Both the position numbers and the translations under genes were made by a program. From Chrysosporum bergii ANA360D (lineage in GTDB: Bacteria; Cyanobacteriota; Cyanobacteriia; Cyanobacteriales; Nostocaceae), in assembly GCF_029891735.1 (NCBI RefSeq), contig NZ_JANQDH010000090.1, forward strand, positions 1-64,000: a stretch of 64,000 nt of DNA, read 5' to 3'. Each line of letters begins with the position of its first letter. Position 1 is the stretch's first letter. The notes under the pieces are model-generated. The model had not been told where the DNA came from. It was given only the letters and a program-made list of their open reading frames with translations, and made no database searches. Below are positions 34,307 to 46,388 of the stretch, piece by piece.

Positions 34307-34567
34307 ATGGCTAATATCACTCTTTCTGAACTGAACAACGCAGGTGCAGAATTATTCCAAGATTCAGAAAGTTTTCTTAACGAACTAAGAGATGTAGATG
34401 CTATCTATGGTGGTAGCAGCAGCGTTAGTGACAGCGCCAGCGAAAGCGGTACATATGGATATGTCAGCGATATCTCTTCACTGACTAAGTTGGCTGAGTC
34501 CTTTGTCATCACTTATTCCATTGGTCACATTACCTACTTGGCTAAATCATTTAGTCATGGATACTAA
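34307..34567 (+). CDS. GG-leader peptide 1 (putative RiPP/bacteriocin precursor)
   Basis: 86 aa. The first ~36 residues (MANITLSELNNAGAELFQDS, ESFLNELRDVDAIYGG) look like a double-glycine leader with a cleavage site after IYGG. The following ~50 residues are rich in Ser, Thr, Tyr and Gly (SSSVSDSASESGTYGY, FVITYSIGHITYLAKSFSHG). No Cys is present, so it is not a lanthipeptide by Cys cross-links. The next gene is a near copy. No maturase or C39 transporter is adjacent, so the RiPP call is inference. Strong ribosome site TTGAGGAG. Confidence 0.7.
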   Translation: MANITLSELNNAGAELFQDSESFLNELRDVDAIYGGSSSVSDSASESGTYGYVSDISSLTKLAESFVITYSIGHITYLAKSFSHGY

Positions 34568-34643: not shown

Positions 34644-34907
34644 ATGGCTAATATCACTCTTTCTGAACTGAACAACGCAGGCGCAGAATTATTCCAAGAC
34701 TCAGAAAGTTTTCTTAACGAATTAAGAGATGTAGATGCTATCTATGGTGGTAGCAGCAGTATCAGTGATAGTGGGAGCGAAAGCGGTACATATGGATACC
34801 ATGTCAGCGATATTTCTTCCCTGACTAAGTTAGCTGAAGCCTTTGTCTTCACTTATTCCATTGGTCATGTTACTTACTTGGCTAAGTCATTTAGTCATGG
34901 ATACTAA
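34644..34907 (+). CDS. GG-leader peptide 2, tandem duplicate
   Basis: 87 aa. The leader is identical to peptide 1 through DAIYGG; the core differs at about ten positions (SSSISDSGSESGTYGYHV, FVFTYSIGHVTYLAKSFSHG). The 5' region (TACTTGAGGAGCAAATA) is duplicated with the gene, so the unit of duplication is about 337 bp. Conservation of both ends with change in the middle suggests the core is diversifying (inference). Confidence 0.7.
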   Translation: MANITLSELNNAGAELFQDSESFLNELRDVDAIYGGSSSISDSGSESGTYGYHVSDISSLTKLAEAFVFTYSIGHVTYLAKSFSHGY

Positions 34908-35142: not shown

Positions 35143-36285
35143 TTAAAACTTGAGAATTTCTCGGTCGTAATTGTCGGGGAGGGGTTCTATTTCCCAGACT
35201 ATACCTTCTCCTGGTTCTAAAGCAACTTCTATATACAATTGTTGAACAGCACTTGTGGCTATATCTTCATTATTGGGGAATGGTTGCAAATCTTCGGTGA
35301 GTAGTCTCAGTTTAAACCCACCGGGAATAGCCGCCCCTATGGTGGCGTTACGTAGCTGAAAACGCCAATGTCTCCTGTTTGGTTCCCCTTGGGGTATAAT
35401 CGCCAGTTCATATAATTGACCGGCGATCGCTAGTTGTCGTGATAAACTTACCTTTGCTGGTGTTTGTTCTACACTCCGCGCCCCTGCGGCTCTGAATTGC
35501 AGATTTAATTCCCAGCCGATCCCGGCTGCAATTTGAGAAACGCCGGTTTGTAACCATCGGATAACTGATTTTTGTTCTGGTAGTCCTAAACGCTGTTCAT
35601 ATAAACGTTGTCGCCAACCTCCATGTTCCATCAGTCCCCCCCACACAGTAAAGGGAACAGCTAAACGAGGAGTAATAATTTCTGGATTTCCTAGCCTGGT
35701 GATTAAATTTTCTGCTTGGGCTTGTGGTAGTCTTGGTATGTCCACAATGGCTACTCTGGTGACTTCCTCTAAACAAAATTCTCGCGCCACTTTTAATACA
35801 TTAATATCAGTAATTATATGCTCTTGTGCCAAAGCATAAGTGCGATCGCTCTGCTGATAACTGCCTTTAGTTTTCATTTGTTTATGGGTACAATAACCCC
35901 AAACCCTAACATAGCCATCATCAGCTTCCACTTGCACTGCTAAGTAATAATCTCCCGCCAAACTGGGTAAATCTACCCATTCCTGTGGCACGCGTAACTC
36001 ACTACTATCTATATTTTCATTGGGAACTAAAATCAATCTAGCTGCATCTAATGTAATAGCAGTGCCATTCACCAATTCCCAAAAACTGGATACAGTAGCC
36101 AAATTCGGCCAAACTTTGGCTTGGGGTGTAATATCTTCCTGCAACCAAGGTAAGACAGCGCCCAGACAAAGTTGATTGAGTTGAGTTTGATAACTGGTAT
36201 AATCAGTGATATGTTGTGCCGTAGTGGGAATTTCTAAAATCAAGTCTGTGGAAGTAAAACTCAAGATGGGCGTATTAGCGGTCAT
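35143..36285 (-). CDS. DUF1822 family protein
   Basis: 380 aa. Recognised as DUF1822 by pattern (DLILEIPTTAQHITDYTSYQ near the start, LPSLAGDYYLAVQVEADDGY, WGYCTHKQMKTKGSYQQSDR, VDIPRLPQAQAENLITRL). The function is unknown. I chose the ATG giving MTANTPILSFTSTDLILEI, 23 nt after the sigma factor stop; a longer version from 36363 would overlap that gene and lacks support. DUF1822 genes often follow this type of sigma factor in Nostocales, so they probably act together. Confidence 0.85.
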   Translation of the reverse strand: MTANTPILSFTSTDLILEIPTTAQHITDYTSYQTQLNQLCLGAVLPWLQEDITPQAKVWPNLATVSSFWELVNGTAITLDAARLILVPNENIDSSELRVPQEWVDLPSLAGDYYLAVQVEADDGYVRVWGYCTHKQMKTKGSYQQSDRTYALAQEHIITDINVLKVAREFCLEEVTRVAIVDIPRLPQAQAENLITRLGNPEIITPRLAVPFTVWGGLMEHGGWRQRLYEQRLGLPEQKSVIRWLQTGVSQIAAGIGWELNLQFRAAGARSVEQTPAKVSLSRQLAIAGQLYELAIIPQGEPNRRHWRFQLRNATIGAAIPGGFKLRLLTEDLQPFPNNEDIATSAVQQLYIEVALEPGEGIVWEIEPLPDNYDREILKF

Positions 36286-36307
36286 GGGCTTTCTATGGGA
36301 AAAATTT

Positions 36308-37492
36308 TCAGATGGTGTCAGTAAACACACCATAGTAATTGTGCAACCACTCCTCAATGACAATAGCCATATTAGTTAGTACGTCTGTTGTCAGAGAAAT
36401 ATGCAGATTATCTTGACTCCAACTAGCTAAACAGCGCAATAATATTTCCTTAGCCTTTGTTAATCGCCGTGAAACTGTGTATTGCTTAATTTCTAACTGT
36501 TTAGCAATTGCATTTTGATTGAGGTGTTGACTGTAGTATAATTCTAAAATAGTTTGGCTTTGGGGTTCTAGTGTAGCCATGGCATCTCTTAAAACTGCCT
36601 TAATAGCCTCTTGCTGAGAAGTGCGAGTTTGGGATTCTTCTGTAGCTATCATCTCAGCAATTAACGATTCCTGTTCTGTTCCTGGTACATAATCTAATAA
36701 TTCCCTAGAATCATCACCTTGAGATATATTCAGAGAATCTGGAGTAGGATAAAGATACCTTCTCACAGCCCTGGCAGTATTAACTAACCAACCTGCCAAA
36801 ATATGGGGCTTGACTTGTGCGTGAGTTTGTGTATTATAAGCTTGGGCGATGGCTTGCCACATTTCCTGATCAGGTGGAGAAAGTTGGCGGGACTTACCAG
36901 CCTGGCTAGGGACATACAAAGCTTTAAAACATTGCCAAGTCAAAATATAAGCATTAACAGTTTCTGAAGACAAACCAGCATTTTGCAAAGACTCATGTAA
37001 ACGCTTTTGGGATATTTTTCGCAACAAGCCCCAGTCTGTACAAATATCAACTTCCCGATTTCGGCGCAAAGTTTCTCGGATAGTATTGGCAAAGACAATA
37101 CTAGCATAACTTGTTAAACTACTGCTGTGACTGGGATTAAAACCCTGGAGAACCTTATCAACTTGAGCGATAGCTATCTGAAAACAGTCTGCAAGTTTGT
37201 ACTGGCTACTGACAAAATGGGCGGATGTTTTTTGAGAAGTCCAGTAGCAGCACTCTTGTAAATAAGCTGTCAGATGTTGCTGTGCCAAAAATTTACTGTC
37301 AGAAACCTGCAACACTTGATACCAATACATCACCCAGAAATTTTCTCTGGTCTCCTTTGGTATTTGTTGGAGACAACTTTGCATACTACGGCGCAATTTT
37401 GATTCTGTCCCCCAACCACTGAAACGGTCTGCGTCAAACTGTACGAAAGTGGAAAAAATTTCAATAATGCTTTGGCGAGACTGCATAACCAT
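36308..37492 (-). CDS. Group 3-like sigma-70 family factor with DUF1822 partner
   Basis: 394 aa from ATG (MVMQSRQSIIEIFSTFVQFD). A long N-terminal region (1-240) unlike canonical sigma factors includes SLTSYASIVFANTIRETLRR, which resembles region 2. A clear region 4-type helix-turn-helix follows near the C-terminus (LEPQSQTILELYYSQHLNQN, AIAKQLEIKQYTVSRRLTKA). It belongs with atypical cyanobacterial sigma factors located beside DUF1822. Targets are unknown. Another ATG lies two codons downstream. Confidence 0.82.
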   Translation of the reverse strand: MVMQSRQSIIEIFSTFVQFDADRFSGWGTESKLRRSMQSCLQQIPKETRENFWVMYWYQVLQVSDSKFLAQQHLTAYLQECCYWTSQKTSAHFVSSQYKLADCFQIAIAQVDKVLQGFNPSHSSSLTSYASIVFANTIRETLRRNREVDICTDWGLLRKISQKRLHESLQNAGLSSETVNAYILTWQCFKALYVPSQAGKSRQLSPPDQEMWQAIAQAYNTQTHAQVKPHILAGWLVNTARAVRRYLYPTPDSLNISQGDDSRELLDYVPGTEQESLIAEMIATEESQTRTSQQEAIKAVLRDAMATLEPQSQTILELYYSQHLNQNAIAKQLEIKQYTVSRRLTKAKEILLRCLASWSQDNLHISLTTDVLTNMAIVIEEWLHNYYGVFTDTI

Positions 37493-37728
37493 AGGCAAGC
37501 TAAACAAAAATCATTGCATGACCATTAAAACATTTTTGTGGAATGCTTCATTTTACCCATGAAAGAGACATCTTGCACCAACCGGAAAAAAAATTTCCCA
37601 AAGACCTGCATAAAAATATCAACCCAAACCTATTGATTAAGTGAGGGGTGAAACCGCCAATATACAGACCAACGTATTAACTGGTTTTCACACTCGCAAC
37701 AATTCTTGTCATTCAATAGGAACAGATT

Positions 37729-38091
37729 ATGTCTACCAAGAACAGCGGTAAAATAAAATTTCTCCTCAGCATTCTTGCTGTCACCAGTTTCGCCTCGTTA
37801 AATTCCTCCGCTTATGCAGAAACGAAACCCGGTAGTATTGATAAATTCTTGCATCACGCCAATTTAAATACTATCGACCCTAGCAGCATTAACCCAAAAC
37901 CTGTATCTGTAGAAAAGCTTGCTCCTGGCGCTATCAAAAAACCTGTAGAAAAGCTTGCTCCTGGCGCTATCAAAAAACCTGGTGATGCAGCCTTAAATGT
38001 TGCTTGTAACGGTGCTTGTGCAGATGGTGTGAAAAAACCAGGAATCGACCGGACTAACTTACCACAAATAAATCGTAAACCCGGACAATAA
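37729..38091 (+). CDS. Secreted repeat peptide, candidate radical-SAM substrate
   Basis: 120 aa. A Sec signal peptide (KFLLSILAVTSFASLNSSAYA) leads into a mature part of about 90 residues built from KPG-containing segments: ETKPGSIDKF, two exact copies of VEKLAPGAIKKP, KKPGDAALNV, CNGACADGVKKPG and a terminal RKPGQ. The two 12-residue units are perfect 36-bp DNA duplications (37909-37944 and 37945-37980). A stem-loop and a radical SAM/SPASM gene follow directly. I do not recognise the family; precursor status is inferred from size, repeats and context. Confidence 0.7.
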   Translation: MSTKNSGKIKFLLSILAVTSFASLNSSAYAETKPGSIDKFLHHANLNTIDPSSINPKPVSVEKLAPGAIKKPVEKLAPGAIKKPGDAALNVACNGACADGVKKPGIDRTNLPQINRKPGQ

Positions 38092-38104
38092 ACACATTGT
38101 CTAG

Positions 38105-38138
38105 TGATAGTAGGTTTATAACTAATGACCTACTATCA
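38105..38138 (+). other. Intercistronic stem-loop between peptide and radical SAM gene
   Basis: TGATAGTAGGT (38105-38115) pairs perfectly with ACCTACTATCA (38128-38138), 12-nt loop, no T tract. It is 13 bp after the peptide stop and 40 bp before the radical SAM start: the position and type expected of an attenuator or processing element giving more precursor mRNA than enzyme mRNA. Confidence 0.65.
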
Positions 38139-38178
38139 AACTGAGGATTTGTAGTTCATTGAGAACAGAATTATTAAT

Positions 38179-39537
38179 ATGAAACTTTCTTGTTATCATG
38201 TCATCACCCAGCCATTTTTTGATCAAATAGAAGAACGAGTTAAACGGGTGGTTTTTGCAACTCGCACAGCTAATGTCCGCATTATTGATGACTATACATG
38301 GACAATTTTAGCGGCTGGTCAGTTGGATGAATTGCCCCAAGATGTTCTATTAGATTTGGCAGAAATTGAATTAATTGTCCCCACAGGAGAAAATGAATTA
38401 CAAACAATTTTAAGTGATAATCATGCCGTAGCTACAAATGACGATAATTTATATTTAGTTGTCCAACCTACAGCTTTTTGTCAACTTGGGTGTCATTACT
38501 GCGGTCAAGAACATACTAGCAAAATGATGAGCGCACAAGAACAGCAACAGTTCTTAGAACGTGCGGCGAAAAAACTGCAAAGCCAAAAATTTAACAGTGT
38601 CTCAATTGGTTGGTTTGGTGCTGAACCTTTGGTGGGACTACCAGTAATGAGAAGTTTAACACCAAAACTGCGATCGCTAGCTGCTGAGTTTAATTGTAGC
38701 TATAACGCTAAAATTGTCACTAACGGTTTAGCCCTCACAGAACATATAGCAACTGAACTTGTGCAAGAGTTGGGCGTAAGTTTTATTGAAGTAACTTTGG
38801 ATGGTGTGGGAGAATATCATAATGCCCGACGGATGCAAAAAAATGGACTGCCTACTTTTGATAAAATTTTTGCTAATGTCACCGCTTTAGCACATCGCAC
38901 AGATTTAGATGTACAATTAGTTGTCCGTTGCAATGTTGACCGTCAGAATTATGAATCTGTTTTCTGGTTATTACAACAATTAGCAGCAGATGGGATACAA
39001 GATAAAGTTGGTTTTTATGTAGCGCCTATTCATTCTTGGGGAAATGACGCTCATCATGGTTCCCTAAGCAAGGAAGAATTTGCAGCTTGGGAAATAACTT
39101 GGTTTGGTGAAATGATTGAATTGGGTTTTAAACCAGGACTTTTACCCCAGCGTAAACCTTTAGTTTGTATGGCAGTGATGCCTAATGCTGAATTGGTTGA
39201 TGCTTATGGTAATATTTTTAATTGTACAGAAGTTTCTTATGTACCCACCTACGGCACACCCAATGAGTATGCTATTGACCATTTATCAGGTCAACAAATG
39301 CCAGGTAAACGGGAAAGGTTAAGTAATTTTAATCAGCGAGTTGGTGAAGGGGAATATCCCTGCTCCACTTGTCCCATGTTACCTGTTTGTGGGGGCGGCT
39401 GTCCAAAAAGTTGGTTAGAAGAAATGGCACCTTGTCCCAGTGCTAAATATAATATTCAAGAGCGTTTACTGCTCACTTATGCCCTGTCACGAATTGAGCA
39501 AGCGGCAACTAACACTTTGGTAAGGGGTAGGGAATAG
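38179..39537 (+). CDS. Radical SAM/SPASM peptide-maturase-like enzyme
   Basis: 452 aa. Residues 1-90 form an N-terminal domain that could bind a leader peptide. The radical SAM cluster is C101-x3-C105-x2-C108 (CQLGCHYCGQEH), followed by WFGAEPL (GGEP equivalent). A full SPASM set for auxiliary clusters follows: C330, C349, C395, C398, C404, C408 and C419 (PCSTC, VCGGGCPK, APCP). These features define enzymes that cross-link or modify RiPP peptides. The preceding repeat peptide is the natural candidate substrate. I can assign neither the reaction nor a named subfamily. Confidence 0.88.
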   Translation: MKLSCYHVITQPFFDQIEERVKRVVFATRTANVRIIDDYTWTILAAGQLDELPQDVLLDLAEIELIVPTGENELQTILSDNHAVATNDDNLYLVVQPTAFCQLGCHYCGQEHTSKMMSAQEQQQFLERAAKKLQSQKFNSVSIGWFGAEPLVGLPVMRSLTPKLRSLAAEFNCSYNAKIVTNGLALTEHIATELVQELGVSFIEVTLDGVGEYHNARRMQKNGLPTFDKIFANVTALAHRTDLDVQLVVRCNVDRQNYESVFWLLQQLAADGIQDKVGFYVAPIHSWGNDAHHGSLSKEEFAAWEITWFGEMIELGFKPGLLPQRKPLVCMAVMPNAELVDAYGNIFNCTEVSYVPTYGTPNEYAIDHLSGQQMPGKRERLSNFNQRVGEGEYPCSTCPMLPVCGGGCPKSWLEEMAPCPSAKYNIQERLLLTYALSRIEQAATNTLVRGRE

Positions 39538-39609
39538 GGAAGAGGGTTTTGGGAACTTGGTCTGTAAAATAGGTGTCCTAACAAGCACTGAGAAAATTAT
39601 GTAAGCGCA

Positions 39610-40104
39610 ATGTCCAACATCAGGCTAGACCAAGGGATCAGATTATCGTTGATCGTAGCTATCATGAGCATCACATCGGTTAATTATGCGGTAGCTGATG
39701 CTCAAGAAGCATCACCAATATTTGCAGACATTACTATCAAGCGACAGTTTTCCCCTGATCCTTTGACAGTTAGGGGTATGAGTGGCGGTTTGATACCAGC
39801 TAGATCAATTGGTGGGCGATCTGAAACACCCACCGGACCTTGTACTGGATTTGTAGATCAAATGCCGGGACACACATTAAAATTAGAAAGTGGATTTGAG
39901 TACCTGAAGCTCACCGTGGAAAGTCCTCAAGATACCACAATGATTGTCAAAGGACCTGGGGGAACTTGGTGTAATGATGATTTTGAGAGGAAAAACCCTG
40001 GTATAGTTGGGGAGTGGCTACCGGGGACTTACCAAGTTTGGGTGGGTTCATACCAAAAAGACAAGTATTTTCCTTATACATTAAAAATTACAGAAGTCAA
40101 GTAA
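39610..40104 (+). CDS. Secreted beta-rich protein, third gene of the radical SAM cassette
   Basis: 164 aa. Signal peptide (LSLIVAIMSITSVNYAVADA). The mature part has two Cys (GPCTGFVD and TWCNDDF) that could form a disulfide. Its pattern of FEYLKLTVESPQDTTMIVKG and PGTYQVWVGSYQKDKYFPYT resembles a small PPC-like beta-sandwich. It starts 72 bp after the radical SAM gene in the same direction, so it is probably in the same operon. The function is unknown. Confidence 0.7.
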   Translation: MSNIRLDQGIRLSLIVAIMSITSVNYAVADAQEASPIFADITIKRQFSPDPLTVRGMSGGLIPARSIGGRSETPTGPCTGFVDQMPGHTLKLESGFEYLKLTVESPQDTTMIVKGPGGTWCNDDFERKNPGIVGEWLPGTYQVWVGSYQKDKYFPYTLKITEVK

Positions 40105-40348
40105 ACAGGCCATAGATCCCCTGTGTACAAGGAAAATCAAGGGTAGAAAAAAAACTTCATCTTTCTTCCCCACTCAACAAACAGTAATTTTTTTCAGAGC
40201 TAATAAGTCCTGCAATGACCAAGGGATAGTTGTTGTGGGAATTTTACCTCTGTTTTCATATCCTGGGTTGCTTCACTTTTAGTGCAAAGTTGTATTAAAA
40301 TTAGGTTAACTTTAATTAAGATACCTTTTGACATCGCCTTAAAGCCTT

Positions 40349-40480
40349 ATGGCTCCACAGCGATTTACGATCAAAGATCAAATTAAACAAAATCCCACAC
40401 CTGATCTGGTTGCGGGTGATGACATCATCAGTCACTGGAGACGGTTAATTGTGTTGGCAGCTAGAGGCAAATTAAAATGA
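40349..40480 (+). CDS. Small 43-aa protein overlapping ftsH start
   Basis: Reads [43 protein letters not shown]. Its stop TGA overlaps the ftsH ATG (ATGA at 40477-40480), the arrangement of translationally coupled genes. The composition (basic, with a short amphipathic C-terminal helix) is protein-like. Function unknown; possibly a coupling or regulatory leader for FtsH. Confidence 0.6.
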
Positions 40481-43145: not shown

Positions 43146-46100
43146 ATGATTGAATTTACCAACTACATCCAAGACATACAAACTAATATTAAACGTGGTG
43201 GAGAACGCAGTCATTACCCTAGTTTAAAACGACTGATTGAAGGTTTAATGATGGGAATTAATGCCACAATTGAAGAAAAAGGTAATCAATATGGTGTTCC
43301 TGATTTCACTATCAGAAAAAGTAGTCGAGTTTTAGGACATATAGAAGCTAAAGATATTAATGTTGATTTAGCAAAAACCGAAAAAACGGAACAACTCAAA
43401 CGTTATTTAGAATCCAACATTGGTTATAATTTGATTTTAACTAATTATCTAGAATTTCGTTGGTATGTAGATGGAGAACGGGAAAAAACCGCCACATTAG
43501 CTAATTTAGAACAAAATGAAATTATCTTAGTTGATGATTTACAACCTATTACCGAATTACTGGAGTTATTTCTGCGTCAAAAAGCCAAAGACATTAATAA
43601 TTATTATGATTTGGCTCAACAAATGGCAGATTATACTAAAACTATTAGAACTGCTGTTATATCATGTTTAGGAGCAGAAACACTCCCGGAAGAATTACAT
43701 CAATTAAAACAAACATTTAAAAAAATCTTGATTCTTGATATAGATAATCAAAGTTTTGCGGATATGTACGCTCAAACCATTGCTTATGGTTTATTTACAG
43801 CAAAAATTGGTCACGCCCAAAACCCAGGAAAATTTATATTTAATCGCATAAATGCCAGTATTTATATTAGTGATAGAATACCTTTTTTAAAAGGACTATT
43901 TAATGTAGTGATCGCTAGGGATACCGTTAGTCAAATTCATAAATCAATTGAGGATTTAGTGGACTTACTAAATACAGTTGATATGACAAATATTTTAGAA
44001 AGTTTTGGTAGAGAAACCCGCACAGAAGATCCGGTTATTCACTTTTATGAAACATTTTTAGCAGCTTATGAAGCCACATTAAGAAAAAGTCGCGGTGTTT
44101 ATTATACTCCTGAACCTGTGGTTAATTTTATAGTTGGTGCTGTGAATGATATTTTAGAGAATGAAGACATTTTTGATTTACAATATGGTTTAGGAAATAG
44201 AAAAGTGACAATTCTTGATCCTGCTACGGGTACTGGCACTTTTTTATATGGGGTTATTAAACAAATTCACGATAATGTAGCTAAATATGGTATTGATAAA
44301 TGGAACTCTTTTTTAAGAGATACCAAACTATTAAACCGTCTCTTTGGTTGTGAATTATTAATGACTCCCTATACTATTGCTCATTTAAAATTAGGTTTAT
44401 TATTAGGAGATTTGGGTTATAAATTTGCCCCAGATGAAAGATTAAAAATTTATTTAACTAATGCTTTAGAACCAGGAATAAACCAGAAAAAGTTAATTCC
44501 AGGAATTACACAAATTATTGCGGAAGAATCAAGTCGGGCTGGAAAAGTAAAAGCCGAAATTCCGGTAATGGTAGTATTAGGAAATCCTCCTTATTCTGTT
44601 AGTTCCCAAAATGCGACTAAACGCAAAAGAATCTTAAATCAAGATGAAAAATATTTAGCTGATGTTGAATATACTGGTTTGGATTGGAATAAGGTTTATA
44701 AATCTGGAAAAGCAGGTAAAACTATTACTGAGTTAACTTATATTGGCGAACTTTTGGAATTGTATAAAGGTCGGGTAAGATTAGAAAAAGAAAAAAATAT
44801 TCAACCTTTGGATGATGATTATATTAAATTTATTCGCTTGGCTCAAGAGCAAATTAAAAAAACCCCCAAAGGTTATGGTATTATTGGTTTTATTACTAAT
44901 CATTCTTATATCAACGGTTTAATTCATCGGGGGATGAGAGAAGAATTATTAAAATCTTTTGATAGGTTATATATCATCGATTTACATGGTAATTCATTAT
45001 TAAAGGAAACTGCACCCGATGGAAGTGTTGATCAAAATGTTTTTGATATTCAGCAAGGAGTGGCGATTTTAATCGCAGTGAGGGAAAAAAGCGAACCTGA
45101 TTATTTTTCTACCGCTTATAAATCCAGAGATGGTATTAAGGAAATGGCTAAGGTATGGTATTATGATCTCTGGGGAAGTCGTGAAGATAAATATCACTTT
45201 TTAGAATCTACTAGTTTAAATAATGTTGCTTGGATTGAGTTACAACCAACAGCGCCTAATTATTTTTTTGCACCGAAAAATTTTGATTTAGCTACAGAAT
45301 ATAATCAGGGCTGGAGTGTTACAGATATTTTTCCTGTCAATTCAACAGGGGTTAAAACCCATAGAGATCATTTTGTTATTGATTTGGATTTAGGGGAACT
45401 GCGTAAAAGAATAGAAGATTTTAGAAATTTAAATATCAGTGATGAACACATATCTAATATCTACAATCTGCGAGATACTCGTGATTGGAAAATTAGTCAA
45501 AAGCGAACATCATTAGCTAATAATAAAGATTGGGTCTCTTATTTTACCACTTGTTTGTATCGTCCTTTTGATCAAAGATTTTATTATCATCATCAAGATG
45601 TTGTAGAACTGACTAGAAATCAAGTGATGCAGAACATGGTAAACTGTGAAAATTTAGCCTTGGTTTTGTGTCGTCAACAGTCACAACCAGGAGAATGGTA
45701 TTTAGTGAGTGTATCCAATCAAATTATAGAATGTTGTGCTATTTCTAATAAAACCAGAGAAATTAACTATTTATTCCCTCTCTACACTTACCCAAATACA
45801 GAAAATCAACAAACTAACCTGTTTATACAAAGAAATCCTAATTTATCGCCCAAGTTTTTAGAAACCATCGGCAATAAACTGGGTAAAACACCAACCCCAG
45901 AACAAATATTTTACTATGCTTATGCTATTTTTCACAGTCCCACCTATCGCAGTAGATATGCAGAGTTTTTAAAAATAGATTTTCCTCGTCTTCCTTTAAC
46001 TAGTAACAATCAATTATTTAACTGCTTAACTACCCAAGGAGAAGAATTAGTCAATTTACATTTAATGAAATCTACCAGACTGAATAATTTAATTACCACA

Positions 46101-46388
46101 TTTGCCAATCAGGGCAATAACCAGGTTAATGAAGTCAGTTATAATTCAGAGTTGCAAAGGGTTTACATCAATAAACAAAGTTATTTTACAGATATTCCTC
46201 AACATATCTGGGAATTTAAAATTGGTGGATATCAGGTATTAGATAAATGGTTAAAAGATAGAAAAAATGCTGGTCGTGTATTGTCAGAAGCAGAAATCAA
46301 CCACTATCAAAAAATGGTTGTTGCTTTAACAGAAACTTGGCGGCTAATGCCAGAAATTGATAGTTTAATTCCTGGGTTTCCGATGTAG
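43146..46388 (+). CDS. Single-chain type IIG restriction-modification enzyme
   Basis: 1080 aa. The N-terminal nuclease module has P52-D53 ... E67-A-K69 (VPDFTIRKSSRVLGHIEAK). A helical linker follows, then an N6-adenine methyltransferase: motif X GVYYTPEPVVNFIV, motif I ILDPATGTGTFLY (about 357-367), motif IV VVLGNPPYSVSS (about 480). The C-terminal ~350 residues are the likely target-recognition part. Cleavage and methylation in one polypeptide is the type IIG pattern. It is AT-rich, has no HIP1 octamer that I can find, and appears acquired by transfer. Confidence 0.9.
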   Translation: MIEFTNYIQDIQTNIKRGGERSHYPSLKRLIEGLMMGINATIEEKGNQYGVPDFTIRKSSRVLGHIEAKDINVDLAKTEKTEQLKRYLESNIGYNLILTNYLEFRWYVDGEREKTATLANLEQNEIILVDDLQPITELLELFLRQKAKDINNYYDLAQQMADYTKTIRTAVISCLGAETLPEELHQLKQTFKKILILDIDNQSFADMYAQTIAYGLFTAKIGHAQNPGKFIFNRINASIYISDRIPFLKGLFNVVIARDTVSQIHKSIEDLVDLLNTVDMTNILESFGRETRTEDPVIHFYETFLAAYEATLRKSRGVYYTPEPVVNFIVGAVNDILENEDIFDLQYGLGNRKVTILDPATGTGTFLYGVIKQIHDNVAKYGIDKWNSFLRDTKLLNRLFGCELLMTPYTIAHLKLGLLLGDLGYKFAPDERLKIYLTNALEPGINQKKLIPGITQIIAEESSRAGKVKAEIPVMVVLGNPPYSVSSQNATKRKRILNQDEKYLADVEYTGLDWNKVYKSGKAGKTITELTYIGELLELYKGRVRLEKEKNIQPLDDDYIKFIRLAQEQIKKTPKGYGIIGFITNHSYINGLIHRGMREELLKSFDRLYIIDLHGNSLLKETAPDGSVDQNVFDIQQGVAILIAVREKSEPDYFSTAYKSRDGIKEMAKVWYYDLWGSREDKYHFLESTSLNNVAWIELQPTAPNYFFAPKNFDLATEYNQGWSVTDIFPVNSTGVKTHRDHFVIDLDLGELRKRIEDFRNLNISDEHISNIYNLRDTRDWKISQKRTSLANNKDWVSYFTTCLYRPFDQRFYYHHQDVVELTRNQVMQNMVNCENLALVLCRQQSQPGEWYLVSVSNQIIECCAISNKTREINYLFPLYTYPNTENQQTNLFIQRNPNLSPKFLETIGNKLGKTPTPEQIFYYAYAIFHSPTYRSRYAEFLKIDFPRLPLTSNNQLFNCLTTQGEELVNLHLMKSTRLNNLITTFANQGNNQVNEVSYNSELQRVYINKQSYFTDIPQHIWEFKIGGYQVLDKWLKDRKNAGRVLSEAEINHYQKMVVALTETWRLMPEIDSLIPGFPM

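Follow-up and report, generated by a model that had tools for sequence, protein, structure and literature searches.

A small signal-peptide-bearing peptide with a conserved cysteine pair and a radical SAM/SPASM enzyme form a conserved two-gene unit in Chrysosporum bergii and other cyanobacteria

The stretch of DNA analysed here, referred to as the window, is 64,000 nucleotides (nt) of Chrysosporum bergii ANA360D (NZ_JANQDH010000090.1, positions 1–64,000, forward strand). It contains a gene for a 120-amino-acid (aa) peptide with a signal peptide, referred to as the precursor, followed by a gene for a radical S-adenosylmethionine (SAM)/SPASM enzyme of 452 aa, and the two genes form a conserved unit, a conclusion that can be held with high confidence. 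Both open reading frames (ORFs), together with a third of 164 aa, had been delineated in an earlier sequence-only reading of this DNA and were recovered at the same positions. The features of the pair, by window position, are:

37606–37633, plus strand: promoter-like element CTGCATAAAA-N11-AACCTAT, 123 nt before the precursor ATG
37729–38091, plus strand: precursor peptide gene, an ORF of 120 aa with signal peptide, leader motif, linker, two-Cys core and tail
37729–37818, plus strand: Sec signal peptide region, 30 aa, ending SAYA (from sequence and alignment; cleavage site by eye)
37846–37869, plus strand: FLHHANLN, a conserved post-signal motif (consensus LNRANLN in alignments of precursors)
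37909–37980, plus strand: exact 36-bp tandem duplication encoding VEKLAPGAIKKP twice, in the variable linker (from sequence)
38005–38019, plus strand: core C-N-G-A-C (C93, C97), a Cys pair kept across precursors
38105–38138, plus strand: perfect 11-bp hairpin with a loop of 12, starting 14 bases past the precursor stop
38179–39537, plus strand: radical SAM/SPASM peptide maturase, 452 aa (PF04055 and TIGR04085 above cut-off)

Comparison was made with 60 genomes (own included), 386 genomes of the phylum and 388 genomes of the order, where G-numbers denote compared genomes and L-numbers the loci read. The intact close enzyme loci number 11, these being the window, G001, Nodularia sp. LCM1.Bin15 (LCM1), Nostoc parmelioides FACHB-3921 (N. 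parmelioides), G056, G429, G634, G639, G618, G327 and G225. Each of the 11 enzyme genes is immediately preceded, on its own strand, by the gene for a signal-peptide peptide, 87–207 nt off, and the other neighbours of the pair mostly differ from locus to locus. This agrees with the pairing proposed in the sequence-only reading, which had named enzyme homologues consistently lacking a neighbouring signal-peptide repeat protein as the finding that would speak against it; none of the intact close loci lacks one. A divergent twelfth enzyme, in G492, is tallied apart from the 11 and is preceded by a 74-aa peptide without a signal peptide that ends NIACDTSCK. A profile of the 11 precursors gave matches at E<1e-10 in only six of the 388 order genomes, all with an intact close enzyme; among these matches are the second, unlinked precursor of G056 and a broken one of G429. 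Of the two proteins that had been expected to co-occur with the enzyme, the 120-aa peptide does track it, whereas the 164-aa protein, matched in 58 of 60 genomes, does not. Co-conservation of a small precursor with a maturase, by which a cassette for a ribosomally synthesised and post-translationally modified peptide (RiPP) is recognised, is thus observed. No publication describing the peptide/enzyme cassette was found in a full-text literature search judged on titles and the opening of abstracts.

The cassette is rare and patchy, as few close intact enzymes occur in any of the three genome sets. Among the 60 genomes, close homologues besides that of the own genome were found only in G001 and G056 (83% and 74% identity), and four of the 386 phylum genomes have an enzyme match at E<=1e-30. 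The order gave 15 matches, which are close and intact in G000, G056, G429, G634, G639 and G618; the remainder are the divergent G492, broken pieces in G655 and G608, and more distant enzymes in G457, G458, G469, G471, G513 and G623. These six fall outside the cassette group in a tree with weak inner forks; that tree, which includes seven other order-level matches, keeps the 12 enzyme rows together (100/99), with long branches and open forks. The broken copies, a C-terminal piece in G655 (L059) and the N-terminal 110 aa in G608 (L060), are without a credible precursor and stand outside the 11. Weak precursor-profile matches in G289, G655, G680 and G664 (E 1.7e-4 to 5e-3) were rejected, as they fit no relevant NCBIfam model; another weak match is in G668. 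In viral contigs the enzyme has only distant homologues, of 20–28% identity, and a comparison with PHROGs yielded nothing useful. Directly behind the enzyme gene of G056 lies a 225-aa ORF (L051 7048–7725, minus strand) that by eye resembles a protein of chloramphenicol-acetyltransferase type.

The conserved core of the precursor is the cysteine pair, not the KPG/VEKLAPGAIKKP repeat to which the sequence-only reading had drawn attention. The repeat is present as one exact 36-bp tandem duplication, but the duplicated linker unit is single in the other 11 aligned precursors, and as a private duplication in a variable linker it was ruled out as the functional core. Two cysteines per core unit, with D or N after the first (C-[DN]...C), were found in 14/14 units of 12 precursors, the unlinked paralogues of G056 and G429 described below being excluded. 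The spacing is C-x3-C in eight units, C-x9-C in two and C-x10-C in four; the precursors of G327 and G225 carry two units each, and those of G639 and G618 have one additional Cys inside the signal peptide. The FLHHANLN/LNRANLN motif is a candidate recognition site for the enzyme, judging by its conservation behind the signal peptide. The precursor behaves as a real gene, because its ratio of non-synonymous to synonymous substitution rates (dN/dS, Nei-Gojobori) is below 0.5 in six of six species pairs (0.08–0.42), three of which are all among the window, G001 and LCM1; the enzyme gave 0.05–0.16 in the same six pairs by the same method. The proportion of non-synonymous differences (pN) in the first 46 aa is below that of the remainder in five of the six precursor pairs. 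No relevant match to any of the 12 precursors was obtained in NCBIfam or Pfam family scans.

The enzyme belongs among the radical SAM/SPASM enzymes. In the window member, PF04055 scored 35.6 bits in the Pfam scan (cut-off 29.5) and TIGR04085, the SPASM model, 40.6 bits in the NCBIfam scan (cut-off 27), and the three radical SAM cysteines (101, 105 and 108, CxxxCxxC) and seven SPASM-region cysteines (330, 349, 395, 398, 404, 408 and 419), as had been noted from the sequence, are invariant in 12/12 homologues. Bit scores against maturase models cover the window member, for which, among the best 25 of 49 NCBIfam models, no specific maturase model reached its cut-off. Scores against cut-offs were 197.1/525 for TIGR04463, 150.1/600 for CefB (NF038107), 134.8/600 for Clo7bot, 127.7/400 for geopeptide, 76.3/340 for PapB (NF047865), 46.3/425 for SCIFF (TIGR03974) and 43.3/310 for GrrM/OscB (TIGR04261). 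The TIGR04463, CefB, FlmE/OhkG, Clo7bot and geopeptide models were matched at E<=1e-20 by all 12 members scanned. In an AlphaFold2 model of the enzyme from nine alignment rows, with a mean predicted local distance difference test (pLDDT) of 67.5, a predicted template modelling score (pTM) of 0.69 and residues 349–452 unreliable, the top solved-structure matches were to CteB (5why, Z 22.2, 290 residues aligned, root-mean-square deviation (rmsd) 3.2; 5wgg, Z 21.5, 343 aligned, rmsd 5.1), followed by anSME, ChlB and SkfB and, lower, TigE (8vpo). CteB also ranks first of five by sequence (E 4.9e-11). The N-terminus is modelled as strands (7–37) and then helices (38–86), which by eye is like a RiPP recognition element, with a pLDDT of 62–89 for this block in the first 90 residues.

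The closest named models over most of the enzyme, within those best 25, are TIGR04463 (rSAM_vs_C_rich) and that of CefA/CefB (Cys-every-fifth), systems that likewise have Cys in the substrate, but the enzyme is far below both cut-offs. The annotated CefA beside a TIGR04463 enzyme (L097) has 679 aa and a Cys-every-fifth tail, whereas the window precursor has 120 aa, a signal peptide and one Cys pair. Ranthipeptides are recognised by a thioether to a non-alpha carbon. The SCIFF/ranthipeptide maturases (CteB, PapB) share with the window enzyme the nearest solved structure, the SPASM region and Cys in the core, and differ from it through the low SCIFF and PapB scores given above. The cyanobacterial GrrA/GrrM (OscB) cyclophane system also combines a signal-peptide precursor with a SPASM enzyme; here, however, the enzyme falls well short of the GrrM cut-off, Gly-rich aromatic repeats are absent by eye and the precursors match no NCBIfam precursor model, bearing out the earlier view that the peptide is unlike GrrA or other known precursor families.

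A plasmid cluster of Rhizobium etli IE4803 (L095 5671–10973) is likely a related RiPP cluster: its enzyme homologue shows 42% identity over 97%, a gene for a 77-aa peptide precedes that enzyme, and a further protein is homologous to the product of the ORF that follows the enzyme gene in N. parmelioides and G492. Its peptide differs in having one Cys and no signal peptide by eye, and extra JmjC (oxygenase) and acetyltransferase genes are present. Given this homologue and its peptide, the enzyme clade extends beyond the signal-peptide precursor and beyond cyanobacteria.

The perfect 11-bp stem-loop that had been noticed behind the precursor stop is present; the folding energy of the gap is −24.7 kcal/mol (z −3.9), and the longest repeat in 100 shuffles was 8 bp. 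A hairpin following the precursor is not a property of every locus, the stem being common to 5 of the 11 cassettes: G001 and LCM1 have the stem of the window, GATAGTAGGT/ACCTACTATC, and G639 and G618, which belong to a different family, have it in the form GATAGTAAGT/ACTTACTATC. Every one of the 50 cells is paired, and one of the pairs is compensatory. An RNA hairpin is a better fit than a DNA operator, given that the loop ranges from 12 to 16 nt between the shared 10-bp arms and that the flanks can be aligned only poorly. For the window, G001, LCM1, G639 and G618 respectively, folding z was −3.9, −1.0, −4.1, −3.9 and −5.3, the longest repeat 11, 10, 10, 12 and 10 bp, and the longest repeat in 100 shuffles per gap 8, 9, 11, 12 and 10 bp; of these five loci only the window and G001 beat all shuffles, as the repeat lengths elsewhere are equalled or exceeded. 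The gap of N. parmelioides holds an unrelated 14-bp repeat (shuffles 9), that of G225 a 10-bp repeat (shuffles 9), and that of G634 has a z of −3.1 with a perfect repeat of only 7 bp. No T run stands behind the window hairpin, which may for that reason be a 3'-end stabiliser or a partial attenuator. Rfam gave no match within 37400–40400 at E up to 1. A dispersed repeat was ruled out, since the hairpin is at a single place in the genome and only in the G000 and G001 cassettes among the 60 genomes.

The promoter-like element, CTGCATAAAA-N11-AACCTAY, is new here. It precedes the precursors in 6 of the 11 loci (window, G001, LCM1, N. parmelioides, G056 and G429) and both unlinked paralogues, with the first base of CTGCATAAAA 80–132 nt ahead of the start codon. 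With at most one mismatch it was found in 96 of the 388 order genomes, against 27 for a reversed control (by-eye count). Exact sites number at least 27 by eye, of which five are in cassette genomes, and the remaining 22 were all read. Among the matches listed, 20 of these 22 precede signal-peptide-like ORFs, one of them (L136) doubtful, and the other two precede caspase-like proteins (the 16 sites of a later batch dividing into 14 and 2); several of the 22 form orthologous sets and so are not independent. The signal-peptide call is a crude home-made rule, positive for 28/111 neighbourhood ORFs, or 19/100 without the precursors, the latter being the comparison for 20/22. By eye the element looks different from the J-Box of the SigJ regulon, GGGaAtacT as that motif appears in PMC6495340.

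The element of the window has the precursor gene on one side and, on the other, a divergently oriented sigma factor gene that adjoins a DUF1822 gene:

36308–37486, minus strand: sigma factor with regions 2 and 4, divergent, a candidate regulator (TIGR02937, PF04545)
35143–36363, minus strand: DUF1822 protein adjoining the sigma factor (PF08852, E 1.9e-112)

G001 and G429 are arranged similarly, as is G056, where a single 185-aa gene intervenes. The sigma family is widespread, being found in 34 of the 60 genomes at E<=1e-40. Seven of eight cassette-free relatives whose sigma loci were fetched have a degenerate element (2–3 mismatches) at the sigma start, pointing away from the sigma gene into a secreted-protein gene; the signal-peptide rule passes six of these seven and is narrowly missed by the seventh. 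This match is weakened by the fact that part of the degenerate element overlaps the sigma start codon in antisense. The sigma factor may read the element, and its control of the cassette is proposed with moderate confidence. As a separate observation, G052 (L168, C96:128500-136000) has four minus-strand genes divergent to a sigma/DUF1822 pair of the same type, three whose products begin like signal peptides and one that by eye is RTX-like, and three of the four carry the element, one exactly and two with one mismatch.

The element also led to a parallel candidate RiPP cassette. In G375, G680, G033 and G078 (L164–L167) it is followed by a secreted peptide of 138–144 aa with exactly two Cys, in the last third (tips CDNPC in two genomes, CESGNC and CDAC in one each), then by a protein of 261–272 aa and one of 557–560 aa. 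In the G033 copy the former fits no family, and the latter has a TIGR04187-like ATP-grasp part (E 3.6e-19; 69.1 against a cut-off of 350) together with a WelO5-like part that is weak and below cut-off. All four genomes are absent from those with enzyme matches in the order. Likeness to graspetides is limited to this parallel cassette, through the ATP-grasp part scanned in G033, which is below the TIGR04187 cut-off; the window cassette has no ATP-grasp gene.

On these grounds the locus is read, as the likely interpretation, as a two-gene RiPP-type cassette in which a Sec-exported peptide undergoes Cys-directed, probably thioether, modification under likely sigma control. Confidence is high in the pairing and the core of this small RiPP-type family, so far without a name; the peptide is probably the substrate of the enzyme, and Cys-directed chemistry is suggested with moderate confidence because the nearest models are named for Cys-rich substrates and the title of the CteB entry refers to thioether formation. 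Transcription of the precursor would start at a promoter, probably a sigma-dependent one, which in relatives serves genes for secreted proteins, and the hairpin behind its gene would probably set a high precursor-to-enzyme ratio. In the cytosol the enzyme may bind the leader through the LNRANLN-type motif and modify the C-[DN]-x-x-C core, most likely by a thioether cross-link through the cysteines; the modified product would then leave the cell through Sec and be cleaved by signal peptidase.

Several observations weigh against parts of this interpretation. A second, unlinked precursor in G056 (L092 1501–1866) keeps C-D and has lost the second core Cys (TICDGSSLQGV); that Cys is also lost from the unlinked second precursor of G429 (L093 1304–1672), which is broken by a frame shift. 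A sigma gene is near the precursor in only 4 of the 11 loci, and the element in the form CTGCATAAAA-N11-AACCTAY is absent before the precursors of G634, G639, G618, G327 and G225. Only 4 of 24 one-mismatch sites (25 loci fetched) precede signal-peptide-like ORFs; ten of the 24 are without an ATG ORF in range, and many of these sites look like chance matches within genes. The hairpin covariation comes down to one pair alone, equalled by 48 of 500 shuffles and so weak, the shuffles of LCM1, G639 and G618 match or top the observed repeat length despite z values of −3.9 to −5.3, and the gaps of G056, G429 and G327 showed no notable hairpin by folding and shuffles. With regard to chemistry, the Cys pair could form a disulfide, because two-Cys tips also occur in the four genomes with a different enzyme, and a SPASM enzyme with non-Cys chemistry is on record, TvgB making cyclopropylglycine according to the part of PMC9062424 consulted.

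This last precedent, along with TigE among the structure matches, belongs to the alternative that survives best, a possible but clearly less probable one, in which the enzyme modifies the precursor elsewhere than at Cys, acting on linker or D/N-G residues (for example by epimerisation or a C–C bond), and the cysteines form a disulfide after export. It is favoured by the D/N after the first Cys being as invariant as the Cys itself, and by the two-Cys tips of secreted peptides that are linked to the element but accompanied by an ATP-grasp-like enzyme. Against it, the two nearest models, within the best 25 of 49, are named for Cys-rich peptides, and the cysteines stay while the core spacing changes from C-x3-C to C-x9-C and C-x10-C. 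An improbable alternative is that the secreted protein is no substrate at all, being an ordinary member of an element-linked secretome while the enzyme acts on something else. Many element-bearing secreted proteins do occur in genomes without a close enzyme copy, but precursor and enzyme co-occur in 11/11 loci and 6/6 genomes with mostly differing other neighbours, and the divergent twelfth enzyme keeps a C-D-x-x-C peptide though the signal peptide is gone.

The sequence-only reading had further counted the third ORF into the cassette as a secreted partner:

39610–40104, plus strand: 164-aa secreted protein, outside the cassette, starting 72 bases past the enzyme ORF

The 72-bp spacing and shared strand in the window favour such a three-gene version, yet it is very improbable and the gene was ruled out as a partner, being near-universal (E<=0.001; 49 of its 58 matches below 1e-30 by eye) while a close enzyme occurs in only 3 of the 60 genomes, lying beside ftsH in 6 and beside the enzyme in 0 of 9 loci read, and being in G001 on contig 67 with the enzyme on contig 29.

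The two-gene cassette thus delimited represents a maturase/precursor family that carries no name and consists of just two genes, the minimum. The pair is not flanked by any conserved transporter or protease gene, and the Sec signal peptide would stand in for the usual export genes. The element offers a handle on regulation, as the precursor and other secreted proteins may form one regulon; if they do, searching filamentous cyanobacteria for exact matches could uncover more peptides that are modified and exported, and such a search has already led here to the ATP-grasp-like cassette.

A wider reading is offered only tentatively, namely that a sigma/DUF1822-controlled secretome of the Nostocales, tied to caspase-type stress or immunity systems, deploys Sec-exported two-Cys-tip peptides with interchangeable maturases (radical SAM/SPASM or ATP-grasp-like) behind one promoter class. 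If true, it would link programmed-death signalling in bacteria with a RiPP class that has gone unrecognised. In the consulted part of a paper on TRADD-N and death-like domains, extracytoplasmic function (ECF) sigma and DUF1822 genes are noted beside EACC2/caspase-domain genes (PMC8195603), a likeness to the sigma/DUF1822 pair beside the window cassette. A further likeness is found in G429, where the enzyme is followed by a 1759-aa protein, caspase-like by eye, that combines nSTAND1 and WD40 domains, and the two caspase-like element targets (a by-eye label) among the 22 listed exact sites are 61–69% identical to its N-terminal part. The window differs in that no such gene adjoins its sigma/DUF1822 pair, judged by eye.

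Elsewhere in the window, two near-identical peptides of 86/87 aa (MANITLSELNNAGAELFQDSESFLNELRDVDAIYGG...) are encoded at 34307–34567 and 34644–34907 on the plus strand, leader-like and with a GG end. Neither Pfam (at E up to 1) nor NCBIfam gave a model for them; seven matches lie in the own genome, which is one of the 15 genomes out of 40 that have matches. At 43146–46388, also on the plus strand, lies a 1080-aa ORF that by eye is like a fused restriction-modification (adenine methylase) protein.

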